A stretch of 64,000 bases of DNA from Prosapia bicincta (lineage: Eukaryota > Arthropoda > Insecta > Hemiptera > Cercopidae): assembly GCA_036971475.1 (NCBI GenBank), contig JBAIZL010000005.1, positions 239,096,690-239,160,689 of the forward strand, read 5' to 3'. Under the pieces are notes generated by a model. It saw nothing but the letters and a program-made list of their open reading frames with translations. It had not been told where the DNA came from and did not search any database. Below are positions 100 through 63,320 of this stretch, in pieces (position 1 is the stretch's first letter; every line of letters starts with the position of its first letter). The position numbers were made by a program, and so were the translations under genes.

Positions 100-275
100 T
101 CACAGCTTTTCGCCGATAAAATAGTACCAGCATCTTCAGGAAAATAATTATCTAATAAAATATTTTTACAAAATTCAGAATTTTACAGAATTTTTATTAG
201 GTAATATTTTATTAGATAATTATTTTCCTGAAGATGCTGGTACTATTTTATCGGCGAAAAGCTTTGAATAAGTAT
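100..275. repeat. Palindromic Penelope-type terminus (two hammerhead-like cores, head to head)
   Basis: Two inverted arms of about 70 bp surround a short A/T loop. Each arm carries CTGAAGA, a pairable stem and GAAAAGC: minus strand 105-139, plus strand 228-262. The layout matches the ends of the Penelope element at 22.2-26.6 kb, but the sequence is clearly another subfamily. No coding sequence accompanies it, so it is probably a solo terminal-repeat remnant. Confidence 0.6.
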
Positions 276-360
276 ATTCATTAAAAGTATTCTTGTTTTT
301 GAAATATTTTTAATTTATTAACTATAATACAAGAAAACATATCACCATATTAAATATATA

Positions 361-590
361 TATATTGGACGTTTTTATTTTTATTCATCCAATGAAATTC
401 AAAGGAATTTTGTTTAACCTATAGTGGATGACAATGGATGTTAATACAGTTTTTTCAAATATTTATTCATTATTTAAATTTTAAAAAAACTTGATGTCCC
501 GGTCGGATTTGAACTGAGAAACTATATGTTCGAAATCCAGCACTTTGGCATTGGACCAACCTTTTCATTGCTAGATATAAAAAAAAGATG
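361..590 (-). repeat. tRNA-derived SINE-like repeat, copy 1
   Basis: The minus strand has a tRNA-like head at about 490-570, with a B-box-like AGTTCAAATCC and an anticodon-arm-like segment. A tail follows that recurs at 17.6-17.86 kb. Tail pieces (a 'gtggatga' and 'tattttatt' block, then 'aggagagtgtgaacta') also recur near 5.86, 6.22, 9.75, 10.8 and 13.0 kb. A dispersed family is clear; the tRNA origin is an inference from the weak B box. Confidence 0.5.
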
Positions 591-1745
591 TTTGAGATGT
601 AAAAAAGATGCTTTTTATTAAAGATGTACATGAAATTATAAGAGAAAGGAACCTTGCAATAATGAAGCAATACAAGAGATGGATAGATTGAGAAGGTATA
701 GACCACCATCAGCTTCATAAATTAGAAACGAAGAAAAAGAAAGCGAGTAAATAGTAACAAACAAAACAAAATAGTGAAACACCATATATTACATATAGAG
801 AGAGAGAAAGGAAATATTGTACGGAAATTAGCTTTCTATTTTGCCACTTAATATTGATTTTTTGTATTTATAATAATTGTAATTATAAAGTAAACAGTAA
901 ATAAGATGAAGTTTTTTTTGTTGACAACATTTTTATATATTACTAGTTTAAATTATATTTTGGAATGGGAAATTGGACAGTCTTAAACGAATCTGGATAT
1001 TTGCCGAGGCGCCACCTGTGAGGTATCCTCGTACTAACCTTATGTTGTACCTGTAGAAAATAAAAATTTTTTTTTTTTCATCAGTGGAAGACAGTTTCTG
1101 TCTCAGTTAGTTTTTTCAAATTTACAAAATTCAAAGTCCGGATAGTCATAAACTAATGTAAATATGATTCATTAAGTTTCACCGAACGTAATGAAATACA
1201 AAATTTAAGAAAAGGTTTTCATTTTTACAGCATGCACGGTTTAGAAGTAAATTTTAAAATTTCGATAGAAAATATATTGAATGGTTTCAACTAATACTAC
1301 AACCATTAAATGTGGCAAACAGACAGCTGAAAGTGTTTTAAATAGCCAGAATCATGATTAAGTTAAAGTGTGACGTCTGCATGATTGTAGAGAGGATCGA
1401 GTGTTCTGCGGCAGAGGGGAAATGGGGACGTTTCTTAATCTTGGAAGAACAATAACGCCCTTCAGAAATAAGGGGGTGATTATGAATAATACATAAGAGC
1501 CTATTAAAAGGGTTAAAGAAGGGTCATAAACCTCCCCGGTTGGGAAATAAGTAAGGATCATAGTATCAGGCGAACAGGAAAATTTCAACCCCTTTACACC
1601 ACCTCCTAAATTGTTTTTTTTTCAGTCAGGAATGTCACCAATATGACTACTATCGCCTAAGAAAGATAAGAAACATAGTGGATACAGGTAAAACTAGGGT
1701 ATAGGAACGTAAGACACCTGGTAGACGATATAGGAGGGATCACAG
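591..1745. other. No gene recognised
   Basis: This is AT-rich sequence with a slightly GC-richer part from about 1360. Two short open frames show no recognisable domain. I see no element termini. Confidence 0.5.
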
Positions 1746-2465
1746 TAGGTGGAGAGTCGCATACCTCAAGTAATACCACTCTCTATCGGGGCCATAATGA
1801 ACTGTCTCCCGCAATCCGGCTCCTAGTGTGATAAATGGACGAGGAAGAGGATACAGCGGTATAATGGTGGGTGCAGAGTCGCGTACCTTCATTAGACCTT
1901 CTTTCTAGCGGGGTCATAAAGAACTGTTTCCCGCAATCCGGTACCTAGTGTGATAAATGGACGAGGAAGAGGATACAGTGGTATAATGGTGGGTGCAGAG
2001 TCGCGTACCTTCATTAGACCTTCTTTCTAGCGGGGTCATAAAGAACTGTTTCCCGCAATCCGGTACCTAGTGTGATAAATGGACGAGGAAGAGGATACAG
2101 TGGTATAATGGTGGGTGCAGAGTCGCGTACCTTAATTAGACCTTCTTTCTAGCGGGGTCATAAAGAACTGTTTCCCGCAATCCGGTACCTAGTGTGATAA
2201 ATGGACGAGGAAGAGGATACAGCGGTATAATGGTGGGTGCAGAGTCGCGTACCTTAATTAGACCTTCTTTCTAGCGGGGTCATAAAGAACTGTTTCCCGC
2301 AATCCGGTACCTAGTGTGATAAATGGACGAGGAAGAGGATACAGCGGTATAATGGTGGGTGCAGAGTCGCGTACCTTAATTAGACCTTCTTTCTAGCGGT
2401 GTCATAAAGAACTGTTTCCCGCAATCCGGCTCCTAGTGTAGAAAAATGGATGAGGAAGAAGATAA
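1746..2465. repeat. Tandem array, 122-bp unit, about 6 copies
   Basis: The anchor word at 1819, 1941, 2063, 2185, 2307 and 2429 is spaced exactly 122 bp. The central units differ by only a few bases; the first unit (from about 1746) and the last are more diverged. The unit is GC-richer than its surroundings. Every frame is interrupted, so it is not a coding repeat. Uniform central units with worn edges suggest unequal exchange or another homogenising process. Confidence 0.95.
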
Positions 2466-3193
2466 GTGAAAATATAATAAAATTAGGACTCTCCCTCTTA
2501 CGGGAAGCCTAAACGTAGAGTGAGAGAATATTACGGCCAGGCACTGAAACCTTTGGTAGTACAGGTTTGGAGGTGTCTAGAAAGCTGACTTCAAACATTC
2601 GCACTCTGTCCAAAAATGTTAATACTAAATCGATTCACGGGTATTGTAAATAAGTCAATCTTGGTTTACTGCGTCGCTACAACCTAGCGGGTCAAATTAA
2701 TTCGGCGAACATTTATGCTGATGAGATATTACGCTAAAGACATTTACAAGTAAAAACCCAACATTGAAGAGGTCACATTGGATATGCTTCGTCCTTAATG
2801 CGTTCCGAAGCCCTTTTACCAAACATTATCTTCTTGATTATTCACATCACAAATATTCCAGACATTCCACGTATTGAAAATAAAAATTCATTATTTTTTT
2901 CATTTCATGCATTTTTATCAACCAATATTTTTGTTTAGTATAATACCTCCTCCTTCGTTCACATAAAATGAAATCCCACGTTCTCCTTCCTTCTACGGAT
3001 TTCCAGCCCCAAGTGAAGCCGATACCTCGGTATCCATGGTAAGCCGCCGCAAGGATTTGCCATTAAGAGTCTTCGTTATGCTGACTCACACATGATCCTC
3101 AACCTGTTTCTGTGCTGGTTGCTATCGTTTCAGTAGGATAAGCTCTACATTCTCCTCTGTCTCCTGGCAAGATGGCATTACGGATAGCAAAAG
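2466..3193. other. Spacer between two tandem arrays
   Basis: This is single-copy-looking sequence of intermediate GC content. I found no domain, RNA gene or element end. Both arrays and this spacer may belong to one larger repeat, but no boundary is visible. Confidence 0.4.
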
Positions 3194-4398
3194 TGCTTGA
3201 ACCTGTAAAGATATTGCTACGTAGCATATTTTCTATTCTGACACGAGTTGCAAATGTTGCCACCGCACGAAAGATATCCCCATACCCAGACCTTTCCAGC
3301 TGGCTCTGCTGTAAAGTCTCCTGGCCGCTTTACATAACGAAGCGCCAACATGCTTGAACCTGTAAAAGCATTGCTCCGTAACATAATTCTTATTCTGCTA
3401 CGATTGGCAAATGCTGCCATCGCATGAATGATATCACGATACCCAGACCTTTCCAGCTGGCTCTGCTGTAAAGTCTTCTGGTAGTTTTACATAACGGAGA
3501 GCCAACATGCTTGAACCTGTAAAAGCATTGCTCCGTAACATAATTCTTATTCTGCTACGATTGGCAAATGTTGCCACCGCACGAAAGATATCACAATACC
3601 CAGACCTTTCCAGCTGGCTCTGCTGTAAAGTCTTCTGGTAGTTTTACATAACGGAGAGCCAACATGCTTGAACCTGTAAAAGCATTGCTCCGTAACATAA
3701 TTCTTATTCTGCTACGATTGGCAAATGTTGCCACCACACGAAAGATATCACAATACCCAGACCTTTCCAGCGGCCTCTGCTGTAAAGTCTTCTGGTAGTT
3801 TTACATAATGGAGAGCTAACATGCTTGAACCTGTAAAAGCATTGCTCCGTAACATAATTCTTATTCTGCTACGATTGGCAAATGCTGCCACCGCACGAAA
3901 GATATCACAATACCCAGACCTTTCCAGCGGCCTCTGCTGTAAAGTCTTCTGGTAGTTTTACATAATGGAGAGCTAACATGCTTGAACCTGTAAAAGCATT
4001 GCTCCGTAACATAATTCTTATTCTGCTACGATTGGCAAATGCTGCCACCGCACGAAAGATATCACAATACCCAGACCTTTCCAGCGGCCTCTGCTGTAAA
4101 GTCTTCTGGTAGTTTTACATAATGGAGAGCTAACATGCTTGAACCTGTAAAAGCATTGCTCCGTAACATAATTCTTATTCTGCTACGATTGGCAAATGCT
4201 GCCATCGCACGAATGATATCACAATACCCAGACCTTTCCAGCTGGCTCTGCTGTAAAGTCTTCTGGTAGTTTTACATAACGGAGAGCCAAGATGCTTGAA
4301 CCTGTAAAAGCATTGCTCCGTAACATAATTCTTATTCTGCTACGATTGGCAAATGCTGCCATCGCACGAATGATATCACAATACCCAAACCTTTCCAA
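3194..4398. repeat. Tandem array, 157-bp unit, about 7.7 copies
   Basis: The word tgcttgaacctgtaaa starts at 3194, 3351, 3508, 3665, 3822, 3979, 4136 and 4293, exactly 157 bp apart each time. Units differ by a few substitutions. Some variants are shared by adjacent units, such as the 'agcggcctctgctg' form in units 4-6. Short frames cross single units but none runs through the array, because 157 is not a multiple of three and stops recur. Confidence 0.96.
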
Positions 4399-5902: not shown

Positions 5903-5960
<58 letters not shown>

Positions 5961-6175: not shown

Positions 6176-6220
<45 letters not shown>

Positions 6221-9429: not shown

Positions 9430-9830
9430 AAATTTCATTTTAGTTACTTTTCTTAAATAATTACAATTAATATAAATAACAAAATAGCATAACCTATGCG
9501 TTAAATCATTTGTTCTACCACATAAACTATAACATAAAATCAGCTGCTTTATGAAATCATATGTTATCACTTGTTTGAACCCAAAAGGGACGGAATAACT
9601 ATATTACATTTCTTGAACTTTTGTGAAAAGTTTTCTCCCTTATAAAACTAAAATTAATTAATTTAAATTCAATTATTATTTTAAAAAAATGTATTAACAT
9701 CAGGTGTAATCCGCTGCAAGTTTAAAAAAATGTATTTGAAGTGGAATGGATGATTAAAAAGTATTTTATTAACGATTGAAAATATGAACAAGATATATAT
9801 ACAAGGAGAGTGTGAACTAATAGAGGGAGT
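9430..9830 (-). repeat. Interspersed repeat copy (same family as 5.6 and 13.4 kb)
   Basis: It shares with 5560-5900 the blocks 'taaataattacaatt', 'ttgtgaaaagtttt' and the tail ending 'gtgtgaactaatag'. There is no long open frame. It is probably a SINE or a deletion derivative of a larger element. Confidence 0.5.
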
Positions 9831-10372: not shown

Positions 10373-10809
10373 CACCCTAACTTACGATTAGTTCCTGGCA
10401 AACACTGGAGTAGTTCGCAGAAGTAATGTAAATTATTATGAGGAATATGCTTAGAAAATATATATTGATGTTTTTACACTATGATCTTCATCTTGGGCAA
10501 CAGTCAGGAGAGATTATTTTATACTCACAACAAATGCTCAATGTGGGAGGTAAAGGTGTCTCCCAAATAAACAGAGGACATCTTGAGGGCAGCAGAACAA
10601 CATCTTACAAAGTGGGACAAATGGTCACTTTAATTTAAAAGTAAACATATATTTGTTTTTGTAATGCTAATATTTAGTCTTAATAAAAACCTTAAGGTAG
10701 ACTGTAAACAGTTGAGATTTTAACTGAAAGATTAGATTTGCTAATTATTCATTTGTTGTTTTTTACAGACCTGGTTATTTATTAAATCCCTTCTGTTAGT
10801 TCACAATCT

Positions 10810-10813
<4 letters not shown>

Positions 10814-10870
<57 letters not shown>

Positions 10871-10879
10871 TTAATATGA

Positions 10880-10932
<53 letters not shown>
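10814..10932. repeat. Two adjacent (AT)n microsatellites
   Basis: Runs at 10814-10867 and 10886-10932 are separated by a short unique piece. They abut a Penelope-type terminus. Confidence 0.95.
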
Positions 10933-10935
<3 letters not shown>

Positions 10936-10948
10936 TTGTTTAATATTC

Positions 10949-10982
10949 CTGATGATGTTGGTACTGTTAGCCAACGAAAAGC
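10949..10982 (+). ncRNA. Hammerhead-like ribozyme core in a Penelope-type terminus
   Basis: CTGATGA is followed by one extra T, stem arms GTTGG and CCAAC around a 9-nt loop, then GAAAAGC. CUGANGA and GAAA boxes flanking helix II are the hammerhead signature, and such motifs are known in Penelope-like elements. The AAGCTT after the box could form a very short helix III. Activity is unproven because of the extra base next to helix II. Confidence 0.5.
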
Positions 10983-11061
10983 TTTGAAATGTAAATTCAA
11001 TTATAATTCTTGTATTTGTATTTTGACTTATGTTCTTTATATATATATATATACCTAGTAT

Positions 11062-12655
11062 TGGAAAACATTGGGCTATGGGCCGACTGCAATAAAATGA
11101 CAGTTAATCCTGAGAAAACAATTTTTCAGTTTTTCACTCTCTCCACCAAGCCCCCAACCATTGAGCTCAAATATAAAAAGAGTTGCCTACCAGAGTCTAA
11201 ATTGTCCAAATACTTAGGTGTTAATCTGGACACTAGACTCTCATGGAAAAATTACATACAAGAGGTTGCTGAGCGCGCTAGCAAGCGAACAAATTTGTTA
11301 AAAAGACTAACTGGTACAAAGTGGGGTTGCACGCAGGACGTTCTTGCCACTGCTTATAAGACCTATGTCAGACCCTCCATGGAATACGCTTCAGAAGTTA
11401 CGTCACTGGCCAGTCAACCGAATCTGCGAAAGTTAGATAAAATACAGAACAGTGCCCTCAGAATCATCACCGGCGCAGCTTTCTCAACGCCCATTTGTGC
11501 GATGGAAATGCAAACCTGCATAGAACCATTGCAAAAAAGGCGCGAAAAACTAACACTTAAATTTTGGGAACGCTCAAGAAGAGTAAATCACCGATACTGG
11601 ACTAACTATAGAAAGGCTGCACAGAGACTAAAAACCCAGCTAAGCCCACTACAACACGCTGAAGAACTTAGAAGAAGGTATAGCATCGGTGAATCAAACC
11701 CAACCCCGCTCAAAACTTTCAACAAGCCGACTATTGCCATGCCTCTCAAAAGTTTGTCATTACTAAACTTTAAAACCCCCAAGCATCTTGCACTCCCAGA
11801 AGAACTAAAGATTTCTGCCCTTGAGACAATCCACACTTTATATCCTGAACCAGACTGGCTGCACATCTACACTGATGGATCTAAACTCAATCCTACTGGA
11901 GCTGGGGCTGGAGCTTTCTCCAAGCTATTTGAAATCAGCCAGGGCGTTGGGGCAAACACAAGTAATTTTGATGGGGAAGTAACGGCAGTGCGACTGGCCG
12001 CAGAGGCTCTTGCTGCGCATCACCCAGCAACGAACCACCAACGAGCTGTTTTCTTTATAGACTCTCAAGCCGCCATAATTGCAATAGCCGACAACTCTTC
12101 AACAGACTGTTCGAACATATTCCACTGCCGAGAAGCAATCTCACATCTTTTGCAAAATGAATGGTCAATTAGCTTTCAGTGGATCCCAAGTCACGTTGGC
12201 ATCACAGGTAACGAAAGAGCAGACGACCTTGCAAAAAATGGAACGCAAATGCAACAACCATATGCAGAAACCAGCCTCACCTCTGCCAAACACCTTATTG
12301 ATGCAATCCTTAAACGCTCAATTAAAAAAGATCATGAGGAAGCCAGCAGGGGGAAACAGTGGGCATCACTTAGCAGTCGCGGTCCTTTGGTGCCCACAAG
12401 CGATAGAGCAACTGCCGTGGCTGACTTTCGACTTCTGACAGGACACGACTATCTCCAGGCCCACCTCTACCGTTTTGGCCTAGCGGAATCCGATAGAGCG
12501 GTGTCCGCTCTGTCTCAATGGTGTCATGAATGGGGACCACATTTCAACCTGTCCTGAACTGGACGACCCAGCTGTCCAGAACCGGTCGTTACTGGGAGGC
12601 TCGACGCCGAATGGTTCAACAGCCAAGGGCGGGCATTGGATAAAGTAAAGTAAAG
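11062..12655 (+). pseudogene. 5'-truncated LINE: RT C-terminus, RNase H and TAAAG-type tail
   Basis: A long open frame (to 12557) begins inside an (AT)n run, so the true 5' part of the element is missing. The first 200 or so residues match the post-catalytic part of a LINE reverse transcriptase (SKYLGVNLDTRLSW, then YKTYVRPSMEYASEV). An RNase H domain follows with all four expected acidic positions visible: YTDGSK, GEVTAVRLA, FFIDSQAA and NERADDLAK. Near the end the frame slips: the next frame carries the expected C-terminal H/C motif (GDHISTCPELD), so one indel separates them. The tail 'ataaagtaaagtaaagtaag' precedes (AT)n. RNase H plus such a tail fits the I/Jockey-related groups. It is a dead copy, but a fairly young one given the long open frame. 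Confidence 0.85.
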
Positions 12656-12659
12656 TAAG

Positions 12660-12854
12660 TATATATATATATAGAATATCAAATGTGTTTTCCTGTTAGA
12701 ATATTTTTAAGATCAAATAATATACACAAATACAGGAATATTTAATTTATTGAATAATAAACTCAAAGCTCTTCGTTGGTTTACATTACCAACATCCTCA
12801 GGAGTTACAATACTAAGAAGCCATATTCCTGTATTTGTGTATATTATTTGATCT

Positions 12855-13001: not shown

Positions 13002-13470
13002 ACAATTGCTATTGTTAATAAAATACTTTTTATTCATCCACCCAAGTTCAAATATATTTCAAAATATTTTTAGTAAATGACAATTAATATTAATACATTT
13101 TTTTCAAATATTATTTCATTATAAACACAAGAAATATTTACAGCTAACAATTATAAAAACCTTAATCTTAAATGTGTTTCAATGTCATTATGTCATCTTC
13201 TTCAGTGATGCTATCACAAACAGAACGTTAATTAAAAAATATATCCTATTGCTTGTAGTATTAGTTCATTAATTAAATTTAATAACTTGATTTTAGGGAG
13301 AAAAACTTTTAAAAAAGGGGCAAGATATGCAATATAGTTATTTCCTCCCATTTAGTTTAAAATAAGTGGTAATGTATGATTTCATATAAATGCTAATTTT
13401 GTGTTATAGGTTATGTGGTAGAGCAGCTGTTTTACCCATAGGTTATTTTACTTTATATTAATTGTAATTT
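13000..13470 (+). repeat. SINE-like repeat copy with a second hammerhead-like core
   Basis: It shares blocks with the repeats at 5.6 and 9.5 kb in inverted orientation. Inside it the minus strand at 13176-13205 reads CTGAAGA, A, GATG...CATT, GAAAC, another hammerhead-like arrangement with a different helix II. Confidence 0.45.
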
Positions 13471-19480: not shown

Positions 19481-19860
19481 TAAAAACAAATCACACTATT
19501 GAAATATTTCGATCATACAATGATCTTTTTCAATCAAAAAAGAAGAAATGACTGAAGTGAACCACAGATATGAATAAAAGATTAAATATTCAAATGTCAC
19601 AGATTTATAGTTTAAGATGTAGTACTATATGTTATTTATATAAATATTTATAATTTAAACCAGATATAGTCTGTCAGAAAGTAGTTAGTATAAATAACAT
19701 ATAGTATTACATCATAAACTATAAACATGTAAATCTGTGACATTTGAATATTTAATCTTTTATACACATCTGTGGTACACTTCAGTCTTTTCTTCCTCTT
19801 TTTTGATTGAAATATTTCATGGTATGTTCAAAATATTTCAATAGTGCACTGTGTTTTTAA
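19480..19860. repeat. Long imperfect palindrome with decayed hammerhead-like core
   Basis: Left arm 19480-19643 and right arm 19687-19860 are inverted copies with about 15-20% mismatch over a 43-bp centre. The left arm on the minus strand (19506-19533) reads TTGAAAA, A, GATCA...TGATC, GAAAT. It resembles the other Penelope-type termini with a damaged first box. Confidence 0.7.
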
Positions 19861-22255: not shown

Positions 22256-22289
22256 GCTTTTCGTTGGCAAACATTACCAACATCATCAG
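22256..22289 (-). ncRNA. Hammerhead-like ribozyme core, Penelope minus copy
   Basis: CTGATGA, one T, GTTGG / 9-nt loop / CCAAC, GAAAAGC, placed 3' of the RT frame. It is the same motif as at 26510-26543. Hammerheads at this position are known in Penelope-like elements, where they are thought to process the tandem transcript. Confidence 0.55.
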
Positions 22290-22380: not shown

Positions 22381-24796
22381 TTATTTTGTTGCTGTAACAT
22401 TATAGACATTGAATATAGTATCAAATTTAGAATGTATTTGTATTTGTTCTTTTATTAATTTGTTATTATTATTGTGTTTATATATTTCAAATGCTTCATA
22501 TATATTCATTCTTAATCCCTTATTAATTTCTTTTATAAGTCTCATATTATCTATATTTGGAAATTGGTGCTTATTATTAATACAATGATTTGCGAAATTT
22601 GATTTATATATTTCTGGATTAATGTAGGCATTTAAATGTTCTTTATATCTTTCTTTTAATTTTTTCTTTGTTTGACCTATATAAGCTTTATTACAATCTT
22701 TGCATTCTAATTTATAAACACCTCCTTTTTCATGCATATTAATTGTTTTAATATTGTTATTTATTATGTTTATTATTTTGTTATTAGTTTTGTATGCAAT
22801 TTTGATATTTGTATTTTTAAATAATTTGGTGATATTTTTTATTTCATGGCCTATAAATAAAAATGAAGTCCATATTGTATTATTATTATTATTATTGCAA
22901 ATTAAATTATTATTTTGTTTATTAAAAATATTATAATTAAGTTTGTCAACAGTTTTCTTTTTATAACCGTTTTCTAATGCAATTTGATAAATTATGTTTT
23001 TTTCTTTTATTTTATTTTCTTCATTCATGGGTATTTTATGCATTCTATATAATAAGTTATATAAAGCAGCCATTTTTTGATTATATGGATGATTAGATTT
23101 ATTTGGTATAATTTGGTTTGTCAAAGTTGGTTTACGGTATATCATATATTCAAATTTTTCATTTTTTCTTATTATTGTTAAATCTAGAAAATTTATTTTG
23201 TTATTTGTTTCAATTTCATAAGTAAATTTGATTTTATTATTAATTTTATTTATTTTATCTAAAATATTTGTTAAATTTATATTATTATTGTTTGATATAT
23301 ACATTCCATCATCTACATAGCGAAGCCAATAACCAGTTTTATCATATATTTTTATAATTTCATTTATTTTATTATCTAATTGTTGTAAAAATATTTCAGA
23401 TAATATATTTGATAATGGCGAGCCCATAGCAAGACCATCCTCTTGTTTATAAATTTTGTCATTATATGAAAAATAATTTTGATTTAATATTATTTTGAGT
23501 GTATTTAAAATTTCTAATGTTAATTTTTTATCTTTCTCATGTTCCAATTTAGATTTTATAATTTCAAGAGTTTCATTTATAGGTATGTTTGTATACATAT
23601 TTTTTATATCTAATGATATTAATTTTGTATTTTCATTAATTTTAATTGCATTTAGTTTTTCAATAAGATTAATAGAATTTATTATAGTATGATTATTATT
23701 TAGTTCTATTTTTTCTTTAAGAATATTTACCATAACCTTTGATATTTCATAAGATGGAGCTTTTATAAAATTTATTAATGGTCTTATTGGTTTATCTATT
23801 TTATGTAATTTCACAAGTCCATTCAATGTTGGAATTTTTGGATTATCATTTATATAGTTGCTAATTTTATTTTTATTGAATAATTTGTATGAAGATTTTA
23901 TAATATTTTTAATTTTATTTTGAAATTTATTTGTGGGATCTTTATATATTTGACAAAATTGATTATCATTTATGTATTTTTCTGTTTTTGTTATGTGCTC
24001 ATTTTTATCAATAATGACAATAGCATTACTTTTATCTGCCTTTACTGTAATAAGATTATTATTTTGTAATTTTTGTTTTAAATCTTTAATTTCTGAATAT
24101 TGTTTCTTATGTGTTTTATTAACTGTATTTTTTTTTAATCAATTTTTTAATTTCATAAGCTGCTTCGATTCTGGTATTTTCTTGTAAGCTTGTATTTAGT
24201 TTACTAATAGCTAGTTCTGTATCTACTATAATATTATTAATATTATTATTTATGTCTGTTTTTATATTGGTTTTATTGTTTTCAAGCAGTTTTATTTCAT
24301 TATTATTAAATCCAGTATTTGATAGATTAACTACATTAGGGTGAAAATTATGATATTTAATTTCAGGTACATCTTTTATTTGTTTTTCTAACTTCAAATT
24401 TTTAAGTTTTTTGTTTATTCTATTTATTTTTATATTTCTAATTTTATTTACAAATAAATTGATTTTATTATATTTTTCTTCCCATTTTATGTTATGCATA
24501 ATAGAAGCTAATTTTATATGTAGCTTATATATTTCAATTGTTAAAGTATTTTTCTTTTGATACAAGTTTTTAATTTCATTCTTAACCCATAATTTTTCAG
24601 CTTGTTTACATGTTTTTTGAGCTATATTATTTTTGTTTTTTATTGTAATTTTTGCGTATTTGGGAATTATATTATTTATAATACATTGTTTATTAAAGTA
24701 TATATTACAGTTAGTATTCATTAGTTGAATTTTACGTTTTTCAAATAAATTAATGTCTTTTGTTAAGGCAACATTACAATTATTAATAGAAATCAT
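22381..24796 (-). CDS. Penelope reverse transcriptase with GIY-YIG endonuclease (one frameshift)
   Basis: This single frame of about 805 codons is broken only once, by a slip in a run of nine A (minus strand) near 24130. Either side reads smoothly, so the break is recent or an assembly slip. The N-terminal 225 residues are Lys/Asn-rich and helical. The RT core follows with GLAMGSPLSNILSEIFL and the catalytic YVDDGMY. The C-terminus has a GIY-YIG nuclease: GGVYKLECKDCNKAYIGQT, then KKKLKERYKEHLNA, then the FANHC segment. RT plus C-terminal GIY-YIG is diagnostic of Penelope-like elements, which reverse-transcribe at a nicked target. The length is normal for the group. Codon use is extremely A/T-rich. 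Confidence 0.92.
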
Positions 24797-25220
24797 TTTA
24801 AAATATATTAGTATAGAATAGGCTGTATTATATTGTAAATATTTGCTTCTAGTTGTATATTATAAAATATTTGTTTGATCCAGTATCAACTTGTAAAGAT
24901 GAAAATGTTCAGTATAATTACTTTAGAAATGATAAAAATTATATATTTTGAGTTGTTTATAATATCTTTTTCAAATATATGTAATAATACACACAATTAT
25001 AGATATTTGATCAATTAATCAGTATGTTAAATATTAAATATGTTATCAAAATTTTTTTGAATTAATAATCAAGTCTCAAGTCTAACCTACAATTATAACA
25101 CTTACATTGATTGCACAACACTTTTTATATAACCCTGTAAGGTTAATTTTATATAAATATAAAATACGTTTTCTTGTTTAATAATTTAAAAACAACACAG
25201 GTTATTCAAATACAAGAATA

Positions 25221-26625
25221 TGAGAAATTGTAAAAGATTATGAGGTTAAATTGGAACATGAGAAAGATAAAAAATTAACATTAGAAATTTTAAATACACT
25301 CAAAATAATATTAAATCAAAATTATTTTTCATATAATGACAAAATTTATAAACAAGAGGATGGTCTTGCTATGGGCTCGCCATTATCAAATATATTATCT
25401 GAAATATTTTTACAACAATTAGATAATAAAATAAATGAAATTATAAAAATATATGATAAAACTGGTTATTGGCTTCGCTATGTAGATGATGGAATGTATA
25501 TATCAAACAATAATAATATAAATTTAACAAATATTTTAGATAAAATAAATAAAATTAATAATAAAATCAAATTTACTTATGAAATTGAAACAAATAACAA
25601 AATAAATTTTCTAGATTTAACAATAATAAGAAAAAATGAAAAATTTGAATATATGATATTCCGTAAACCAACTTTGACAAACCAAATTATACCAAATAAA
25701 TCTAATCATCCATATAATCAAAAAATGGCTGCTTTATATAACTTATTATATAGAATGCATAAAATACCCATGAATGAAGAAAATAAAATAAAAGAAAAAA
25801 AACATAATTTATCAAATTGCATTAGAAAACGGTTATAAAAAGAAAACTGTTGACAAACTTAATTATAATATTTTTAATAAACAAAATAATAATTTAATTT
25901 GCAATAATAATAATAATAATACAATATGGACTTCATTTTTATTTATAGGCCATGAAATAAAAAATATCACCAAATTATTTAAAAATACAAATATCAAAAT
26001 TGCATACAAAACTAATAACAAAATAATAAACATAATAAATAACAATATTAAAACAATTAATATGCATGAAAAAGGAGGTGTTTATAAATTAGAATGCAAA
26101 GATTGTAATAAAGCTTATATAGGTCAAACAAAGAAAAAATTAAAAGAAAGATATAAAGAACATTTAAATGCCTACATTAATCCAGAAATATATAAATCAA
26201 ATTTCGCAAATCATTGTATTAATAATAAGCACCAATTTCCAAATATAGAAAATATGAGACTTATAAAAGAAATTAATAAGGGATTAAGAATGAATATATA
26301 TGAAGCATTTGAAATATATAAACACAATAATAATAACAAATTAATAAAAGAACAAATACAAATACATTCTAAATTTGATACTATATTCAATGTCTATAAT
26401 GTTACAGCAACAAAATAAATTTAGCAATTTGTATAAATTTAACAACAATTCTATTTCTAAATAAACATATGTTTTAGGCCTATAGCTTACATTATTGTAA
26501 TTTTCATTCCTGATGATGTTGGTAATGTTTGCCAACGAAAAGCTTTGGATATAAAATAATAAATATTCTTGTATTTGAATAACCTGTGTTGTTTTTAAAT
26601 TATTAAACAAGAAAACGTATTTTAT
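25221..26625 (+). pseudogene. 5'-truncated, inverted Penelope copy
   Basis: The plus-strand frame starts inside the RT at the residues EHEKDKKLTLEIL, continues through YVDDGMY and breaks at about 25800 by one extra A in an A-run. It resumes through the GIY-YIG domain to a stop at 26418. It is almost identical to the minus copy; visible differences include YMIF for YMIY and NIEN for NIDN. A hammerhead-like core (26510-26543) and a terminal repeat follow. The junction with the minus copy at about 25220 lies inside the terminal repeat. This is the head-to-head truncated arrangement often seen at Penelope insertions. Confidence 0.88.
26510..26543 (+). ncRNA. Hammerhead-like ribozyme core, Penelope plus copy
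   Basis: It is the same sequence as in the minus copy. A third copy at 26730-26761 (minus strand) is cut off inside the CTGATGA box by an (AT)n run. Confidence 0.55.
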
Positions 26626-26681: not shown

Positions 26682-26761
26682 CAACACAGGTTATTCAAAT
26701 ACAAGAATATTTATTATTTTATATCCAAAGCTTTTCGTTGGCAAACAGTACCAACATCATA

Positions 26762-26799: not shown

Positions 26800-29010
26800 T
26801 CGGCGCCGCTTATTGTGATCATAGTTGTCAGAAGCATATTTGATAACAATAACCGAACGATAACAATAACCGAACGCTTAATCACGATGTAGTCTACAGC
26901 CGTACTGCATTGAACTCACTGTATTATTGCCACAACTGTTTGTTCTGAACGATATGTAAGCCTATCATTACATCAAGTAATTCTAATTCTGTAACACTAT
27001 AATTAAACTGTACTTACCAAATTTTGATGCTATTCCGGACAGTTTTATATACAGTAATAGAATTTCTGTAATTTAGTTTTCTACTTGTTAAAATTAGTGG
27101 GCATATTTCATGTCAGTTTATTTTATTCCACTGTAGATTTTTTTTTAAACACTGAATCTAATATAATTGAAAAAAAATACAGTATATAGAACTACGTAAA
27201 ACACTTGATCAAAACAATTTAACACATAAAACTTCATTATAAAACACTTCAATCTTATTTACACTTCAAATTTACATTTACTTCTTCTCGAAGAGTTCCT
27301 CTATATGTGACTGTCTGTAGTCTTCTCGTAAAATATTGTTTATAAATTGTTCATATTCATAATGTTTGTTGAAATTTTCTGCTTTTTGTTGAACAAACTG
27401 CCTTAGAATCACAAGAGCTTGGTGAACTTCCTGCTTAGATCTTTGCGGTACACATTTATCATTTTCATCATCATCGGTGCCTTCTTCTTCTTCTTCAGTA
27501 ACTTTTGATGTTCAAGGAACTACCTCACAAATATCGTCTTCAGTCATTTCCGCTGCTGTTTCAATACTATCGTCAACTTCCATCCACTCAGTATATTCTT
27601 TTAAGGACAAATAGAAAGGCTTCAAGTTCTCTTCAGAGTCTTTCTCAGATGTAGCTTGCTCTTGATTTTCTTCAACAAAAAACCACCTTTTCTAAAGCAA
27701 TTTTTCACAGTTTTTTCAGAAACTTCATTCCAAGATTTTGCTATCAGATGAATAGCATCGAGTAAAGAAGTTTTTTTAGCCAATTCATTTGAGGTAAGGG
27801 TTTGAAATTCATCTATATTTTCTATAATTCTAGCACGCATCTCTTGTTGATAAAAACTTTTGAGATTTTTAATTATGCCTTGGTCACATGGCTGAATAAT
27901 TGATGTAGTATTGGACGGAAGGTAAATCACTTTGATGTGTTTTAGCGTTGTGCTTATGTCATTATGAGCAGTGCAGTTGTCTAGTAGAAGGACAATGTTG
28001 CGTTTGAGGCTGGTATCCCATTTAGTCAGCCATTCATTAAAAATTTTTGATGTCATCCAAGCATTGAACCATCCATCTGTGGCTTTAAAATCCTGTTTTC
28101 CTATTTTTTTGGCAAGATCCTCAGCTTTTAGACGCATTAGTGGGCCGTCAACTCGAGCATCTTTTTCGCGAACATTTTTAAACCACAATTTCAAAGCTGA
28201 TTCCACTTGCGGATCCTTCCCAGAACGATGTCTTTTGTTGTCAACATTTGCATTACACTTTGATAATAACAAGATTTTTTCTTTGTTGTTCAATATTTTA
28301 CATAAGAGAGGTTGAGAAACGCCAAGTTGAGAAGCAGCGTTTCTTTGGCTCATTTTTGGTAATTTACTGTACCTATCTAGAATATCAAGTTTTTGTTTAA
28401 GACTTAAATCGTGTCGTTTCTTTTGAGATTCGGACATCTTGCTATACTGTCCTTTGAAACTTCAAGTGACACTAAACTCTACAAAACATACGAAAAAGAT
28501 CTTTAAAAATTAAGTTATGTAAAATCACACTGAAATACTGTAATAAACGTTCATAAAAATTCACTGTTAAAAAATACAGTAGGACTGTACTGTAAATGGT
28601 TCAGTAGTAACATCAACTAATGTTATCAAACAACTAAAGTCGACTCAAGCGAGGCTAGGGTGTTTGCGTAAACAAACAGTAAGGGAGCCATTCTGAGAAC
28701 TGTGCTAAGTGCTGAAACCGTTATAAAGTATTTCTGTCATTCTAAAAATAAACATTCTATGAATTGGGCGTCATTGTGTGTTGCACGTGCTGTTTACACT
28801 ACTTTGTAGACATTTTTACTTGGTCTATGCTAGTATACGTTGACGCATATGATTTTGAATGGCAAATTAAATGATAATAATAAGCGAACAGATGATTACA
28901 ATAAGCGGCCTAATTACAATGTATTAATATACGTCCATGTTTGTTTTTCACTGAAACGATAACAATAACCGAATGATAACATTAACCGTGATCACAATAA
29001 GCGGCGCCGA

Positions 29011-29149: not shown

Positions 29150-30164
29150 TTGTCGAATCACAAGATTCACAAGATTCAAAAAATCACGAGTTCTGAGTGA
29201 GCTGGAGCGTTGTCGTGATGGAAAAACCAGTTATCACTTATCCACAACTCTGGCCTTTTGCGACGGACCTTCTCCCCTCAGACATTTCAGGACTTCAATA
29301 TAGGTAATCTGGTTGACTGTAGAGCCTTCAGGGAGGTACTTGTAGTGAACAACACCCTTAGCATCAAAAAAAACTGTCAGCATCACCTTCACATTCGACC
29401 GAACTTGGCGAGCTTTTTTGGGTCTTGGGGGCGTTTGACTCACCCATTCGGATGATTGGACCTTCGTTTCAATGTCGTAACCATACACCCATGATTCATC
29501 ACCAGTTATAATTCTTGACAAAAAATTCTCATCTTCATTTGAAAGATCAAGCAGTTCCCGACGAACCCGGACGCGATTGGCTTTTTGGTTGTTAGTCATC
29601 ATTTGTGGCACAAATTTCGCAGCGATGCGGTGCATCTTCAATTTTTCAGTCAAAATCTTGTAACAAGATCCAACTGCTATCCCACACTCTTCGGAAAGCT
29701 CCCTAATCGTCAGATGTCAATTTTCGCGCACCAGGGTGTTGATTTTGTCAACGTGTGGGTCGTCAGTTGACGTTGAAGGACGTCCAGGACGCTCATCGTC
29801 ATTAATCGACTGTCAACCACCCTTGAAACGTTCATGCCACTTGAAACATGCAATACGCTTCATGGCAACATCGCCGTAGGCCGTGTTAAGCATGGCAAAT
29901 GTTTCTGTTGCGGATTTCCCTAGTTTTACACAAAATTTCACAGCAATTCGTTGCTCCTTCAGGCTGTCCATTTTACAATCCGACAAATGAAAAAAACACT
30001 CTTTACTAAACTGTGTGTAACTCATCAACTAATGAAGATATCTACGACTGAAGTACCGTGTTTTAATCAGCTGATTTATACGAACCTAGCTACACCAAGC
30101 GGATTCTCCTGAAACTAACTAACGCGAAATTCAAACAGTCCGCGTATTTTTTGTACAGACCTCG
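29150..30164 (-). mobile_element. Mariner element, truncated at its 3' end
   Basis: The right terminus (minus-strand start) reads 'cgaggtctgtacaaaaaata' and is flanked by TA at 30165-30166, as in mariner elements. The opposite terminus is missing. The coding remnant fills the interior. Confidence 0.82.
29170..30028 (-). pseudogene. Mariner transposase pseudogene
   Basis: The N-terminal helix-turn-helix region (EQRIAVKFCVKLGKSATETF, then CFKWHERFKGG) is followed by two in-frame TGA stops, at about 29815 and 29717. It continues through LTIRELSEECGIAVGS and the catalytic segment TGDESWVYGYD (first Asp). A frameshift near 29270 leads to FFHHDNAPAH (second Asp), and then a stop. The third Asp region is gone. 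CGA-to-TGA decay explains the stops. Confidence 0.88.
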
Positions 30165-33364: not shown

Positions 33365-33885
33365 CAGGGGTCTTCAACCTACAGCCCATGGGCCACTTCC
33401 GGTCCGCGAAAGCTATCATACTGAAAAAAAAAAATTATATTGGTAATATATTTCTTAAAGGTAAAAGTCAAAATAGTAAACTCAAAATCTCACCAAAAAT
33501 TAATTTTTAATAAACAAACACACTAGTTCACAACAGACTAGTTTCGGCAACGATGTCACCTTCCTGTGTGCTTGGCTACTACTGTCGTACTACTACTTAG
33601 TCATAACTAAATATATTTCCTTTTAAGCATTTTTACTATTAAATATGAGTACAGTACTCGTCTCTCACTTGCCAAGTCTTTTCTCTATAAGTGTAAAACT
33701 AGCTGTAAACATGTAAAAAGCTATGCAAGATAATCTCAAAAACCACCACTGAGCTCTTGATTAGAAAAAAAGTCGTGGATGTATGGGGGGGGGGGGCTAG
33801 ACTTTCTGCCCGGAAATATTGCCGGCCCTTTCCTCCAAATGTTTTCGATGTGGCTCTTTGAATAGAAAAGGTTGGAGACCCTTTG
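33365..33885. mobile_element. hAT-type MITE with perfect 8-bp target duplication
   Basis: Left end CAGGGGTCTTCAACC and right end, inverted, CAAAGGGTCTCCAACC. The 8 bases GCCTATAC occur immediately outside both ends (33357-33364 and 33886-33893), the length expected for hAT insertion. It is 521 bp long and non-coding. Its interior holds a decayed hammerhead-like segment (33541-33567, minus), so a Penelope terminus was captured or inserted earlier. Confidence 0.92.
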
Positions 33886-34609: not shown

Positions 34610-34890
34610 ACATCTTGAGGTTTTTCTACAATTACACTTTTGATATTTTCTGTTCAATGTTGTGAGTCACAGACAAAACTGTTGCTCAGGTGTGTTGCAT
34701 TGATGTGAGTCTGTGGTGTATTGGTGTTCTGTGGTGTAGTACTGGTTGTAGAGTAGTTGTTGATTATATGTTCAAATATAGTTACTCACAGCATTGAAGA
34801 ATGCGCTGACCTAGTGTAAAACGCGTCTGCTGAAAAATATCAGTAAGTAGTGTTTTTTTTTTTTTTTGCCAAATTGATACCAAAAGTATA
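34610..34890 (+). repeat. Penelope-type palindromic terminus, relative of 50.6-51.09 kb
   Basis: The end block 'gccaaattgataccaaaagt' and the inner block around 'acgcgtctgctgaaaaatat' match 51.0-51.09 kb; the left end also matches. At 34794-34826 it reads TTGAAGA, A, TGCGCT/AGTGTA (six consecutive pairs), AAAC, a hammerhead-like core with two box positions changed. Confidence 0.6.
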
Positions 34891-35389
34891 TGTACAATAT
34901 TTATGTATTATATTTTTATCTATTACTTACTAACATTTTCTTCACTAATGACTGACAACTAGACAACTCTTAATAAGTACTAGATCTTTAAACACTAAGA
35001 GATTTTTTCCAAAACAAAAAGTTGATGAGGTAATTTTTCCAAGATGTGCTAGAAGATGTAAGTAGTCTGAAATAATGTTCATTATTCTGCATCGTGATAT
35101 GGTTTTTGTCTCTATACTGATCTATTATATTTTAGGTTATTGTGTTAATATATTAAAAATGGCTTATCATGAACAAAGTATAGGTAATCAAAAGTTGTTT
35201 GAATTGTATTTAGATTGAAAAAGTGGTCAAGGTATTTCAAACAAAAGGCAATGTGATTTGGAAGGGTGAGTAAGACCAAGTTAAAAGTTGAGGCCTTTAC
35301 TCAACATTGGCAGAGGAGTCTTCATGTTTAATGTTGAACAAAGAATTTTTATAATTGTATAAAATAACATGTGACAATGTTTAATTTAA

Positions 35390-35990
35390 ATAAATGAAAC
35401 CTTTAAACCACAAATAACTTTTTCCTTTATTGAAAACCTTATGTAGATTTCAATTGCATAACAATCATCCTCAGAGGTAATTTATAATAAAAATACATTG
35501 AAGCAACATGTTTCATCAAATATATACACCGGTAACTACTTCGTCAAGCCCATTTCACATTGTCCGACCAATCACGTTGCAGTAAATTCCCCCCTCTGTA
35601 ACTAGTTCTGGTCTCTCAACTTCTGTGGTGAAAAGTTACCGTTACACATATTTCAATTTAGGCAAAATACAATAATTAATTTTAATTTTACAAAATAAGA
35701 CTACAACTAGATCCTAATTAATGAATATTAATTGAGAGATCAGGATAGGCCCTTTGTCACAATTTAATGAATTATTTTCTTCATATTTATGTATATGCAT
35801 ACTTTCAAAACTATCCTACAGACCTTTTGAATTAAAATTTTTCACTAATTTAAAATCATTTATTTCTAAAGAATGTTTGGTGTTTAAGATGTGTTCTGCA
35901 ATACTTGAATTTTTATTTGCTCCATTCAGAAAGGTTTTACCATGATTGATAATTGAACTGTTTCTATAGTGCAACAGGCACTCTTCTCCA
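35390..35990 (-). pseudogene. Second Penelope family: endonuclease C-terminus and terminal repeat
   Basis: The minus strand from about 35940 to 35700 translates to SSIAEHILNTKHSLEINDFK, then LVKNFNSKG, stop, DSFESMHIHKY, then GPILISQL. This is the conserved tail after the GIY-YIG core in Penelope proteins. A terminal region follows with a hammerhead-like core at 35446-35474: CTGAGGA, T, GATTG/CAATT, GAAATC. Its sequence differs from the 22-26 kb element, so it is an independent family. The plus-strand ORF there is a shadow. Confidence 0.75.
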
Positions 35991-50597: not shown

Positions 50598-51090
50598 TCT
50601 ACAACTTGAGGTCTTTTTATAAATAACTACTTTTGGTATCACTTGGCAAAAAAACCACTATATGTTTGAGTACAGTTTTCTGATTCCTATCTTTTCAATA
50701 TTTTCCTCTGTTGACGCTTTTCGGAGTAACTCGATTTTCAAAACTTGAACCTTACTTTTGAAAAAAAAGAGTACGATTCAAGTTTTGAAAATGGAGTAAG
50801 TCCGAAATGAGTTAACAGAGGAGAATATTGTAACGTTAGGGATAGCAGAAAACGGTACTCAAACATATAGAAATATTCCCAGAAATGAAGATGAGTATAT
50901 TGATAATTTCAAAAAACCATTACTTACTGATATTTTTCAGCAGATGTGTATCACACTAGCTCAGTGCATTGTTCAATGCTGTGAGTCACAGACAAGACTC
51001 AAGCATTGAACAATGCGCGGACCTAGTGCAAAACACGTCTGCTGAAAAATATCAGTAAGGTTTTTTTGCCAAGTGACACCAAAAGTAGTA
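50598..51090. repeat. Nested foldback element with two hairpins
   Basis: The outer ends 'ctacttttggtatcacttgg' and, inverted, 'ctacttttggtgtcacttgg' enclose 461 bp (50628-51088). Inside, hairpin 1 (50658-50874) has arms of about 95 bp over a loop of about 25 bp. Hairpin 2 (50930-51057) has arms of about 58 bp. Hairpin 2 contains a decayed hammerhead-like core on the plus strand (51006-51039: TTGAACA, A, TGCGC/GTGCA, AAAC). The relative at 34.6-34.9 kb also shares about 25 bp outside the outer ends. I interpret it as a Penelope-type terminal structure, although a DNA foldback transposon is possible. Confidence 0.75.
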
Positions 51091-51099
51091 CAATATAAT

Positions 51100-54000: not shown

Positions 54001-54575
54001 AAAACCAAATATTATTGAAGTTTTGTAACTAAAATATTAGAATATGGTTCCAAAATTTGCCTCTAGATTATGAGAAAAGGTAATCATTAAATAATAACAA
54101 AAACCCACTTACAATTTATAATTTATTTTCTGTTACTTACTCAATGAATGAGTTCTTTCTCACTCAATAACAAAATCATCATGAGTGAGTTTAACTACAC
54201 AAATTCTAAACTACAAGTGAAGTTACAGCAAGCTTATAACCTATATTTATACCATGGGTGAGGCCAAACACACAGTGTTCACAACTAACAAGCAGAAATC
54301 AAACATAATCACTTGGAAAATTATATTCACACATTATAACCTAATTCATTAATAACATTTACATTTTTATATTTATTAATCAGTAATGTTCCCTATGCAT
54401 CCAATACATTAAACCTAATAACTTTATTCACCAAGGAGATATCTACTTAGAAACAAATTTTCTCCAAATAATGTTTCACTATTACTCATTTTTCCTACCA
54501 GTTATATTATACAGTAAATCCCTTTTAACAAAACTGTGCTTAACTGAAACTAAGATTACTTATAATAGATTGAGA
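51100..54575. other. Large trio intron, middle part
   Basis: Very AT-rich, without clear repeats or exons. Confidence 0.5.
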
Positions 54576-59334: not shown

Positions 59335-59339
59335 TAAAT

Positions 59340-60875: not shown

Positions 60876-61060
60876 CTGAGTTGCTCCAACACTGGTATGG
60901 GTGGAAAGGTAATGTTCTCCGGTCTCGTGGATCCACTCCATAGCCTGTTGTGCAGAGCGTTCAAAAAGAATAAACTGCTGGCATTGGTCAAGCCGTTTCT
61001 TACGTTGGCTCCAGTGTTCTAAGACCTTGTTTTCCTGGCTTAAGAGTTTATCCAAGATTA
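60876..61060 (-). CDS. trio: trio exon: spectrin-like repeat
   Basis: Two bases complete Val, then ILDKLLSQENKVLEHWSQRK, KRLDQCQQFILFERSAQQAM and EWIHETGEHYLSTHTSVGAT, ending in phase 0. Trp residues at HW and EW mark helices of a spectrin repeat. The acceptor is gatttcag, the donor CAG|gttagt. Confidence 0.96.
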
Positions 61061-61069
61061 CTGAAATCA

Positions 61070-61830
61070 AATCAATATACATTACAAAATAGTAATTGTT
61101 ACATACAAAACGGTTGTATTATTTAGGTAAACAACAAAATTTTAATTAAAACCTCTCTTTGAATACTAAAATAATATAAAATTAGAGTATAATTTTTTGA
61201 TTATACGGATTAACTGGGATTAAAAGTTATTTGGTAAATCAAATAGCTAAAAAATAAAAACTCAATCCATATATATGAGGTTGGCAATAAGGATAATCCG
61301 TTTTAATTACGAGACAAGTCTGGTGGGGCTATATCAACATCCAAATCTACTGAGTCTAGATTACTCTTACACCAATCAAAACTGTTTAACTCACTCAAAT
61401 AATAATCTGATGAATACAACACTTTATTTGCAACTGTTCACCTGAACAGATAGATGACATTGCTTGAAAACAATTTCCTTTAAAAACATTTAGACTCAGA
61501 TATATTCAACATATTACAACACTAAACTGGAAATTGTCGTGGACAGAATTTACTAATAATAAAATGTTTATTTTAGGTGTAATGTTTACTTTATGATATG
61601 TTACTATGGGTATAAAAACATTATAAACAAGTTGTAATTTATAATTACAATTTCTTGATATAGTTGTCCTGTACAACAACTTGCTATATTACGTAAATAG
61701 CAAAATTCACCAAATTATTGAGGTTATTGTATTTTTCATTCCTTTTTTAAAACATGAGGAGAACTGATTTTAAAAACCAGAAAAAATTCCTTGTCAATTT
61801 TGAGGAAACTGTCTTTTGCAATAAACGATT
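61070..61830. other. trio intron
   Basis: AT-rich; no feature recognised. Confidence 0.5.
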
Positions 61831-61833
61831 TTT

Positions 61834-62178
61834 AGGGATGGGTCAATTCCTAACATGGGTCAGACGCTAGAGCTAGACCTTGAACTGGAAATGCTTCCGA
61901 TCGTCTTTGCTGTAGTGTCATAAATAATAATAATATTGTTGTTATCTCAAGTTGGTATTTATTTTAATTTATTCAAAGCAATTAATATACATGTATAAGA
62001 TATAATTGATAGTTAATTATGTTTCCAATAAATTACATCACATACATAGTTAAACAGTTAAAAAAATAAGAAACATAATCGGCCTTTTAATCAATGGATA
62101 ATCGAGTAACAATGATTGCTTGATACCATTAGAATCAACAATTCCTGGAATCGAGAATCGGAATCAGCCCAGACCTAA
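61834..62178. mobile_element. Short hAT-type element, same terminal family as 46.95 and 22.1 kb
   Basis: The left end TAGGGATGGGTCAATTCCTA and, inverted, the right end TAGGTCTGGGCTGATTCCGA. It is about 345 bp, non-coding, with no clear target duplication. Confidence 0.6.
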
Positions 62179-62433
62179 TTATTATATTAAGTTACCATGC
62201 CATATTAATAAATAGAACACTCTATTTAATTTTAAGTAACATAATTTTTTATGAAATTATACCAGAGGTTATTTTTGTAACTTTCAATGCCATGTTTAAT
62301 TAGACATGTTTGATAGGGACTCTAACATACAACATCAAAAGTAATTCAATCACTTCGATGAGGCTGACCTATAAGCCTCACTAAGTTCTAGTGTAGGCCT
62401 ACATAATATCACGTTATTTAAAAAATCTGTTAC

Positions 62434-62677
62434 CTTTGACCCTACTCTCTGATCCTGCCTCAGTCCCAGAGTAGTTGTAGTACTGAAGACTCCTACTTGT
62501 ATATTTAAGAAAGGTTTCAGCTGTTCTCCGTGCTAGTGTGCAAGCTTTCAAGAAAGCTTCTTTTTGTTCTTGGTGTTTATTGATGAGTTGTGCAACTCCT
62601 GCACTTTGCACACCTCCACCACACCAGTCTTCGTCTCTTTTGTATTCTCTTTCCAGGCTATCCAATACTGAACAAAC
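62434..62677 (-). CDS. trio: trio exon: spectrin-like repeat, 5'-most confident exon
   Basis: Phase 0 start VCSVLDSLEREYKRDEDWCG, then SAGVAQLINKHQEQKEAFLK and ARRTAETFLKYTSRSLQYYN, ending one base into Val. The acceptor is gttttcctcaag, the donor AAAG|gtaaca. This is the EYK-DDWCGG repeat region of Trio. The open frame continues to the left of the acceptor for some codons, so the exact 3' splice site has a small uncertainty. Confidence 0.93.
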
Positions 62678-63185
62678 CTTGAGGAAAACATCAATTGATA
62701 TTAATATTTCATAAATATATATTACTCTGTTACCTTTATTATCAAGAATTTTTTAAGTGCTTTAAATAATGATATTAAATATATATAACTTTATTGATGA
62801 TATTGAGGTAAATATTAAGACTACCTTAAATATCAGTACACACTAGTTTATAGCTGTTCACTTGTAAACTGTGACCAATTGAAAAAAAAGCTAGGCCTTT
62901 TCAAAAACATTGGTTTGTGTAGTGTGTGTTGCAGTTAAGGCCATCGCTAAGGAATTGCAGGCATTGCTATCATTTAGAAAACTGATATAAGTAAATTTGT
63001 TCAAAATTTTATTTAAATGACCTGGTTAATACCACAAATCAAATAAAATAAATTTTATAGCAACCTTTCGGGCTTGTCAAATCTACATTATTATAATACA
63101 TATAATATTCCACATATTATACTGTATGTAGAACGTTGTTTTGCTTCCTCTAGCCCCCCCCCCCCCCGCCTATGATCGCCCACCG

Positions 63186-63320
63186 AGGTCAAGTGCCAGC
63201 TTACGTGACCAGCTATAATAATCTAGAATCATTTCGGCAACAATGCCACCTTCATCAGCTTTAACCAACCACTAATGAAGGTGACATTATTACCAAAACT
63301 AGTCTGGATTATTAATCTAG
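63186..63320. repeat. Penelope-type terminus, palindromic, with hammerhead-like core
   Basis: Two inverted arms share 'aatccagactag' and 'gaaggtg(g/a)cattgtt' blocks. The minus strand at 63231-63258 reads CTGATGA, A, GGTGGC/GTTGCC over a 3-nt loop, GAAAT. The opposing arm (63275-63300, plus) has lost the first box. Confidence 0.65.

Follow-up and report, generated by a model that had tools for sequence, protein, structure and literature searches.

Probable minimal Penelope-type hammerheads with a constant extra base next to helix II in a genomic window of Prosapia bicincta

What are the hammerhead-like motifs scattered over a 64,000-nucleotide (nt) stretch of the Prosapia bicincta genome (contig JBAIZL010000005.1, positions 239,096,690 to 239,160,689), and what is the extra base that they carry next to helix II? 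This stretch, analysed at its full length, is called the window here. A sequence-only reading had listed 14 ribozyme-like cores in it, divided them into several subfamilies, linked them to Penelope-like elements (PLEs) and described a single unpaired base beside helix II as unusual and as present in every readable copy. Judged by their sequence, we found that the motifs are minimal Penelope-type hammerheads, a kind already known. As a whole, the data are very probably best explained by minimal type I PLE hammerheads that cut as dimers and are spread by the insertion activity of a protein with reverse transcriptase (RT) and GIY-YIG domains.

Hammerhead motifs and the Penelope-like element

The window was scanned with a pattern blind to insert length. 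The strict motif consisted of CTGANGA, an insert of 0-3 bases, a stem II of at least 5 base pairs (bp) with at least one G-C pair, a loop of at most 14 nt, and GAAA or GAAG, and 1000 dinucleotide shuffles served as the null. Eight strict sites were found, at 228(+), 10949(+), 26510(+), 63258(-), 35474(-), 22289(-), 12801(-) and 139(-), against a mean of 0.049 and a maximum of 2 per shuffle (sites are named by one end coordinate and the strand). Seven of them have GAAA and one, 12801(-), has GAAG. The insert was exactly one base at all eight, and no insert length from 0 to 3 was favoured among the shuffle matches (12-13 each). A smaller first run of 200 shuffles contained no insert-0 matches, and a random-sequence test showed that the scan was unbiased. 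With stems of at least 4 bp there were 10 sites, nine with an insert of one and one, 29713(-), with an insert of three (shuffle mean 0.104, maximum 3). When the pattern also required GAAA, U16.1, H17 and three or more pairs in helix I, five sites remained, 228(+), 10949(+), 26510(+), 22289(-) and 35474(-), where 0.002 were expected; four of the five belong to one family, so that fewer are independent, but two unrelated families still pass. A variant scan that allowed GAAG and asked for four or more pairs in helix I returned 26510(+), 35474(-), 22289(-) and 12801(-), with 1 match in 60 shuffles. Thus a helix I joining the outer strands, with U16.1-H17 before it, is present at five sites with at least 3 bp and also at 12801(-) with 5 bp; the combination of helix I and U16.1 is absent from 63258(-) and 13205(-), and 139(-) lacks U16.1. 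Allowing two core changes gave six window sites, 34794(+) and 63272(+) among them, with inserts of 0, 1, 1, 1, 2 and 2, versus 1.67 per shuffle.

Seven copies, at 105(-), 228(+), 10949(+), 12768(-), 22256(-), 26510(+) and, truncated, 26730(-), form one pseudo-long terminal repeat (pseudo-LTR) family, here labelled A (the family letters are assigned in this analysis). Their similarity extends past the motif, and they also align with the pseudo-LTR of a PLE; rows for the stretches 1-700 and 10700-11100 lie outside the in-window repeat comparison. In covariance-model searches, no hammerhead family of Rfam matched the window, at gathering cut-offs and then at E <= 5, and a model built from family A recovered all seven copies at E 2.5e-13 or better.

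The element itself has a Penelope-like open reading frame (ORF) at 22381-24859(-), with a single frame break between 24119 and 24138; it comprises an N-terminal part (24119-24859) and an RT and GIY-YIG part (22381-24138). For the latter piece, 115 protein relatives were found at E <= 0.001 among 7996 candidates scored. Eleven relatives were named with an organism, ten of them insects (including Schistocerca, Euphydryas, Bemisia, Cryptotermes, Zootermopsis and Leptinotarsa) and the weakest a fungus. A Pfam scan of both ORF pieces gave no match; among 26 aligned members at E <= 1, RVT_1 was present in 18 and GIY-YIG in 11, and neither in the window piece itself. Conserved Y, G, R, H and E columns in the C-terminal part of the ORF are what we take to be the GIY-YIG domain, and the window element has the pairing of RT with GIY-YIG that is typical of PLEs. 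A second, 5'-truncated copy with two overlapping open frames lies at 25224-26418(+) (RVT_1 at 3.1e-8). The two copies are arranged head-to-head and are 98.3% identical over 1436 aligned bases.

For both Penelope-like ORFs a hammerhead was found about 90 nt 3' of the stop codon. The one behind the minus ORF, at 22256-22289(-), has a complete core and complete helices I and II, and the one behind the plus copy, at 26510-26543(+), is identical to it, with a predicted cut after 26546. Tail-to-tail with the latter stands 26730-26761(-), a 5'-truncated copy of the family A repeat that is cut off inside CUGANGA. The remaining family A hammerheads are 10949-10982(+), in a short pseudo-LTR piece and with a helix I of 3 bp; 12768-12801(-), with a helix I of 5 bp and GAAG replacing GAAA; 228-262(+), with helix II GCUGG/UCGGC and a helix I of 3 bp; and, head-to-head with 228, 105-139(-), in which U16.1 is changed to G. 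All six copies other than the truncated one have U as the insert. The proposed link to Penelope therefore stands for family A, where an ORF with RT and GIY-YIG lies directly upstream of two copies; beside families B, C and E there is no PLE coding remnant. PLE relatives with DNA outside the window were found neither in viral contigs (window protein, alignment A1) nor in genome contigs (alignment A2), and family-specific motif patterns had 0 matches in genome contigs and 0 in viral contigs.

The families do differ from one another, as the sequence-only reading had claimed, but seven of the sites represent one element family and are not independent observations. Apart from family A, family B is a single complete motif at 35446-35474(-), with helix I ACCU/AGGU, insert U, helix II GAUUG/CAAUU, helix III AU/AU and the site AUA. 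Family C consists of three relics with similar helix II hairpins, two of which have ACUAGU followed by C: 63231-63258(-), with insert A, helix II GGUGGC/GUUGCC and helix I gone; 63272-63304(+), head-to-head with it, with insert A, two core changes and the self-complementary ACUAGU then C; and 33541-33567(-), in which CUGANGA is decayed and helix II, GAAA and ACUAGU-C are retained. The family E candidate at 19506-19533(-) has the core UUGAAAA, in which U3 and A8 replace C3 and G8, together with insert A, helix II GAUCAU/AUGAUC, AUAU then U, and helix I UUGA/UCAA. This exchange has several natural examples, cited as active in vitro in the part of the source available (PMC3088659). A U3-A8 scan adds 19533(-), with 0.017 expected per window for a helix I of 4 bp and 0.035 for 3 bp, the core form having been tried post hoc, after the site had been read. 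The site lies within one arm of the inverted repeat 19479-19649/19679-19861, and the other arm holds a decayed version at 19807(+). The full CUGANGA/GAAA core is thus missing at 63272(+), 33541(-) and 26730(-), which are decayed or cut, and at 19506(-), which has U3-A8.

Of the 14 cores listed previously, 11 are supported, and one copy not listed then, 63272(+), was found in addition. Two sites, 34794(+) and 51006(+), were rejected as hammerheads: they lack C3, have AAAA for GAAA and belong to a repeat with a palindrome at 50923-51059. The repeat family covers 34784-34900 and 50911-51096, the second copy containing the palindrome, and 50911-51066 scores on a microRNA model, below the gathering score, because of the hairpin. 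The Rfam microRNA matches were all below their own gathering scores, several of them in hairpins or (TA)n, and a covariance-model match at 54110-54202(-) (E 0.015) proved upon reading to have no hammerhead core. At 13176-13205(-) the stem has 4 bp, one of them G-C, the insert is one base and helix I is missing. Exactly-4-bp sites numbered 14 per 1000 shuffles with an insert of one and 55 per 1000 with any insert, compared with two in the window, 13205(-) and 29713(-). Since shuffles seldom yield such sites, 13176(-) is not readily put down to chance, and we neither accept nor refute it. The stretch that holds it, about 13126-13272, is missing from the related repeat 9536-9776 and is possibly an inserted element.

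Pairing, dimers and copy ends

Pairing was counted on an alignment of the seven family A copies with six distinct rows (A3). Every cell of helix II was paired (100%), and one pair had changed on both sides, from U-A to C-G, so that the earlier statement that helix II stays paired despite sequence change applies to family A, although the covariation controls were mixed. For helix I the paired share was 80% of cells, and two of its pairs showed changes on both sides. The covariation score was reached by 14 of 500 shuffles and the percentage paired by 51 of 500, and sliding the structure never reached either value. On these sequences, the covariation backing for the family A structure appears weak to moderate. 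A mixed alignment (A4) misplaces GAAA and the bases after it in families B-D, and for this reason pairing was not counted on it.

In the monomer, helix III has one or two pairs. A single pair stands over a self-complementary loop in three families (AGCU in A, CUAG in C and UA in E), and a self-complementary loop over so short a helix III suggests cleavage as dimers. Minimum-energy folds were predicted for six sequences as monomer and dimer. The predicted folds of all six monomers retain the helix II hairpin, and two of the six predicted dimers, 26510 and 10949, join via a AAAGCUUU duplex; a longer helix III is predicted only for the dimer, in these two. Lunse, Weinberg and Breaker reportedly described in 2017 hammerheads that 'cleave RNA as dimers'. 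Minimal type I hammerhead ribozymes, possibly self-cleaving through dimers, are carried by PLE pseudo-LTRs according to the available passages of two sources (PMC7761336, PMC6155905). The window motifs are like the published PLE hammerheads, so far as reviews and titles describe them, in that they sit in a pseudo-LTR, have an RT/GIY-YIG partner, leave helix I open, nearly lack helix III and presumably act as dimers; a possible difference is the one base inserted before helix II in each window family. Amphibian hammerheads, from newt and axolotl, have a one-pair helix III with a palindromic tetraloop and cleave better as dimers, a layout matched by family A (AGCU) and family C (CUAG); they stand in tandem satellite repeats, unlike those of the window, and the extra base is not mentioned in the passages available from that source (PMC7229834).

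The ends of the copies were compared by measuring the tail as the distance from the predicted cut to the first place where five TA or AT units follow one another. This run begins at +53 for 22289(-), +52 for 10949(+), +91 for 12801(-), +88 for 228(+) and +103 for 26510(+); by eye, it lies at about +45 for 139(-) and +51 for 26730(-). PLE insertions end with an optional tail of 30-40 bp (PMC11167929), which the shorter (+53, +52) and longer (+91, +88) ends resemble. The window pseudo-LTRs have the partial tandem or inverted arrangement with optional tail that marks PLEs. The 5' pseudo-LTR piece of the minus copy, at 25146-25221(-), starts by hand count at the 17th base 3' of the equivalent of the predicted cut, and this copy alone has its 5' end past that cut; the others start upstream of the hammerhead or inside it. 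Some copies form inverted pairs. In three of these the copies stand head-to-head, the cores being 88 nt apart at 139/228, 13 nt at 63258/63272 and 273 nt at 19533/19807, where the second copy is decayed; the pair 26510/26761 is tail-to-tail. Such pairs may arise from the mode of insertion.

From the features computed, namely the motif, the paired helices, the position behind the ORF and the copy ends, we infer dimer formation, cleavage and a role in the life cycle. In a transcript through tandem copies, two hammerheads would meet, and the one-pair helix III of a single copy would grow longer as its self-complementary sequence (AAGCUU in family A, ACUAGU in family C, AUAU in family E) paired with that of the neighbour. 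Each hammerhead would then cut after U16.1-H17, releasing a unit-length RNA. The RT and GIY-YIG protein would insert copies at AT-rich, often (TA)n, sites, and insertion would leave 5'-truncated pieces in which the hammerhead is kept and the tail varies in length.

Several observations weigh against this explanation. The predicted cleavage site is altered in 12768 (G15.1) and 105 (G16.1), and most family A copies have a helix I of just 3-4 bp, which is absent from the predicted minimum-energy monomer folds; four of the six predicted dimers form other duplexes. The two-sided change in helix II is carried by two rows, the sister copies 105 and 228. Shuffles reach the two-sided pairs in 55 of 500 cases and further pair types in 345 of 500, and the structure slid by +2 gives equally many two-sided changes. 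The tails do not all fall into two classes, with 26510 at +103 and 139(-) at about +45. Both PLE stretches of the window lie at the family A element and none beside B, C or E, and kinship between the families is read from the motif, because 35446(-) reaches no better than E 4.4 with the family A model, and the sites of C and E are missing from its list. In addition, in the one PLE assayed in vitro, hammerhead mutants had no effect on insertion and the ribozyme required protein (PMC11167929).

The copies without a PLE ORF (105/228, 10949, 12768, 35446, 63231/63272 and 19506) could instead be retrozymes, non-autonomous and spreading in the form of small circular RNAs, and not fragments of the pseudo-LTR of an autonomous element. 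These loci are short, and no frame of at least 120 amino acids overlaps them; animal retrozymes, in the part of the source available, have type I hammerheads and RNAs of about 170-400 nt (PMC7229834). According to the accessible passages, retrozymes are arranged as tandem repeats and, in invertebrates, have a stable helix III (PMC7229834, PMC7761336), whereas helix III here has one or two pairs, none of the 35 tandem-repeat rows in the window holds a motif, and the family A pieces can be aligned to the PLE's pseudo-LTR. We therefore consider retrozymes improbable. Even less credit can be given to chance matches in AT-rich, palindrome-rich DNA. Chance fits 34794(+) and 51006(+), which lie in the palindromic repeat, and may fit 13176(-), which has no helix I; 19506(-) sits in an inverted repeat and was reached with a post hoc core variant. 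Dinucleotide shuffles do not preserve inverted repeats or palindromes, and the weak sites exceed the shuffles (6 versus 1.67 with two core changes, 2 versus 0.055 for the 4-bp stem). Against this stand the strict sites and those with helix I and cut site, at the expectations given above, which make coincidence very improbable for the set. Minimal PLE hammerheads thus remain the explanation that we favour.

The extra base next to helix II

At all eight strict sites helix II does not directly follow A9 but is separated from it by one unpaired base. Among the families the extra base is U in A and B, and A in C and E; its presence is constant throughout the hammerheads of this window. The claim that it occurs in every readable copy holds for every supported readable site; the rejected 34794(+), contrary to it, scores best with an insert of two. 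As a control we used viral contigs fetched by two equally specific patterns, favouring insert 0 and insert 1 (at least 219 loci), with at least 4 pairs, two of them G-C, the fixed tail CGAAACGTC and no helix I required. Among the matches listed there were 51 motifs, some of them duplicates: 45 without insert, four with one base, one with two and one with three. Because 45 of the 51 lack an insert, the scan finds ordinary hammerheads where they are present, and none with insert 0 was found in the window at the strict criteria. The extra base, described as unusual in the sequence-only reading, has precedents.

In the available part of one source, alignments of known hammerheads have no more than one or two nucleotides inserted at this place (PMC10085705), so that a one-base insert does not exclude membership. 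In the Poseidon element PAc of Anolis, of the same element class as here, the ORF starts at the start of stem II and C3 and G8 precede the start codon (PMC11167929). From this description, rather than from the sequence itself, A9-U-G would read AUG, which would imply an extra U. The PAc hammerhead overlaps the ORF start; those of the window lie 3' of the ORF stop. One viral-contig hammerhead (L035) carries a single additional T ahead of helix II, and its tail resembles that of insert-free ones; a one-base insert thus also occurs outside PLEs. De la Pena and Flores are said to have reported an extra nucleotide in the hammerhead of chrysanthemum chlorotic mottle viroid in 2001, an A that reportedly adjoins helix II. 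The available part of another source places the extra A in the core of the plus-strand hammerhead (PMC3705267); as here, there is one extra core nucleotide, but in a single viroid. The constancy of the insert across four families in one genome is possibly new; it was not found described in the literature passages available, which do not cover the two main papers on PLE hammerheads.

How the base should be read was weighed in three ways. It could be no insert, helix II being one pair longer, with the U paired to G12 and the core shifted. The U of families A and B could indeed form a wobble pair with G12, but the A of families C and E makes no standard pair with it, and G12 is a catalytic residue in known hammerheads; we regard this as highly unlikely. 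A functionless accident inherited from one ancestor is a serious possibility, though short of an even chance, and it is in keeping with the one- or two-nucleotide inserts in known alignments, so far as the source is available (PMC10085705), and with the viral-contig hammerhead L035. Against an accident, there is always exactly one base, U or A, though helix II, the loop and helix III vary among the families. We tentatively raise the possibility that in Penelope-like hammerheads selection has fixed one unpaired base between A9 and helix II, and that this base offsets the missing helix III in the dimer. This proposal spans at least four families with differing helices II and III, including the one with the U3-A8 core.

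Neighbouring features and implications

Other mobile elements and repeats were found in the window. Between the family A copies 10949 and 12768 lies the RNase H frame of a non-LTR retrotransposon, 11007-12557(+), which begins 25 nt 3' of the 10949 motif. Two frames encode DDE transposases, at 27622-28461(-) (DDE_1 with a Tc5/CENP-B type binding domain) and at 29234-29716(-) (Transposase_1, presumably of mariner type). Tandem arrays with periods of 122 and 157 occupy 1748-2464 and 3176-4397; neither the strict nor the two-core-change scan listed a hammerhead motif in them.

The head-to-head and tail-to-tail copies and their ends provide material on the poorly known insertion mechanism of PLEs. 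If the extra base is general and functional in PLE hammerheads, it would yield a search model for copies that Rfam misses at E = 5, and the workings of a hammerhead that nearly lacks helix III could then be tested directly.

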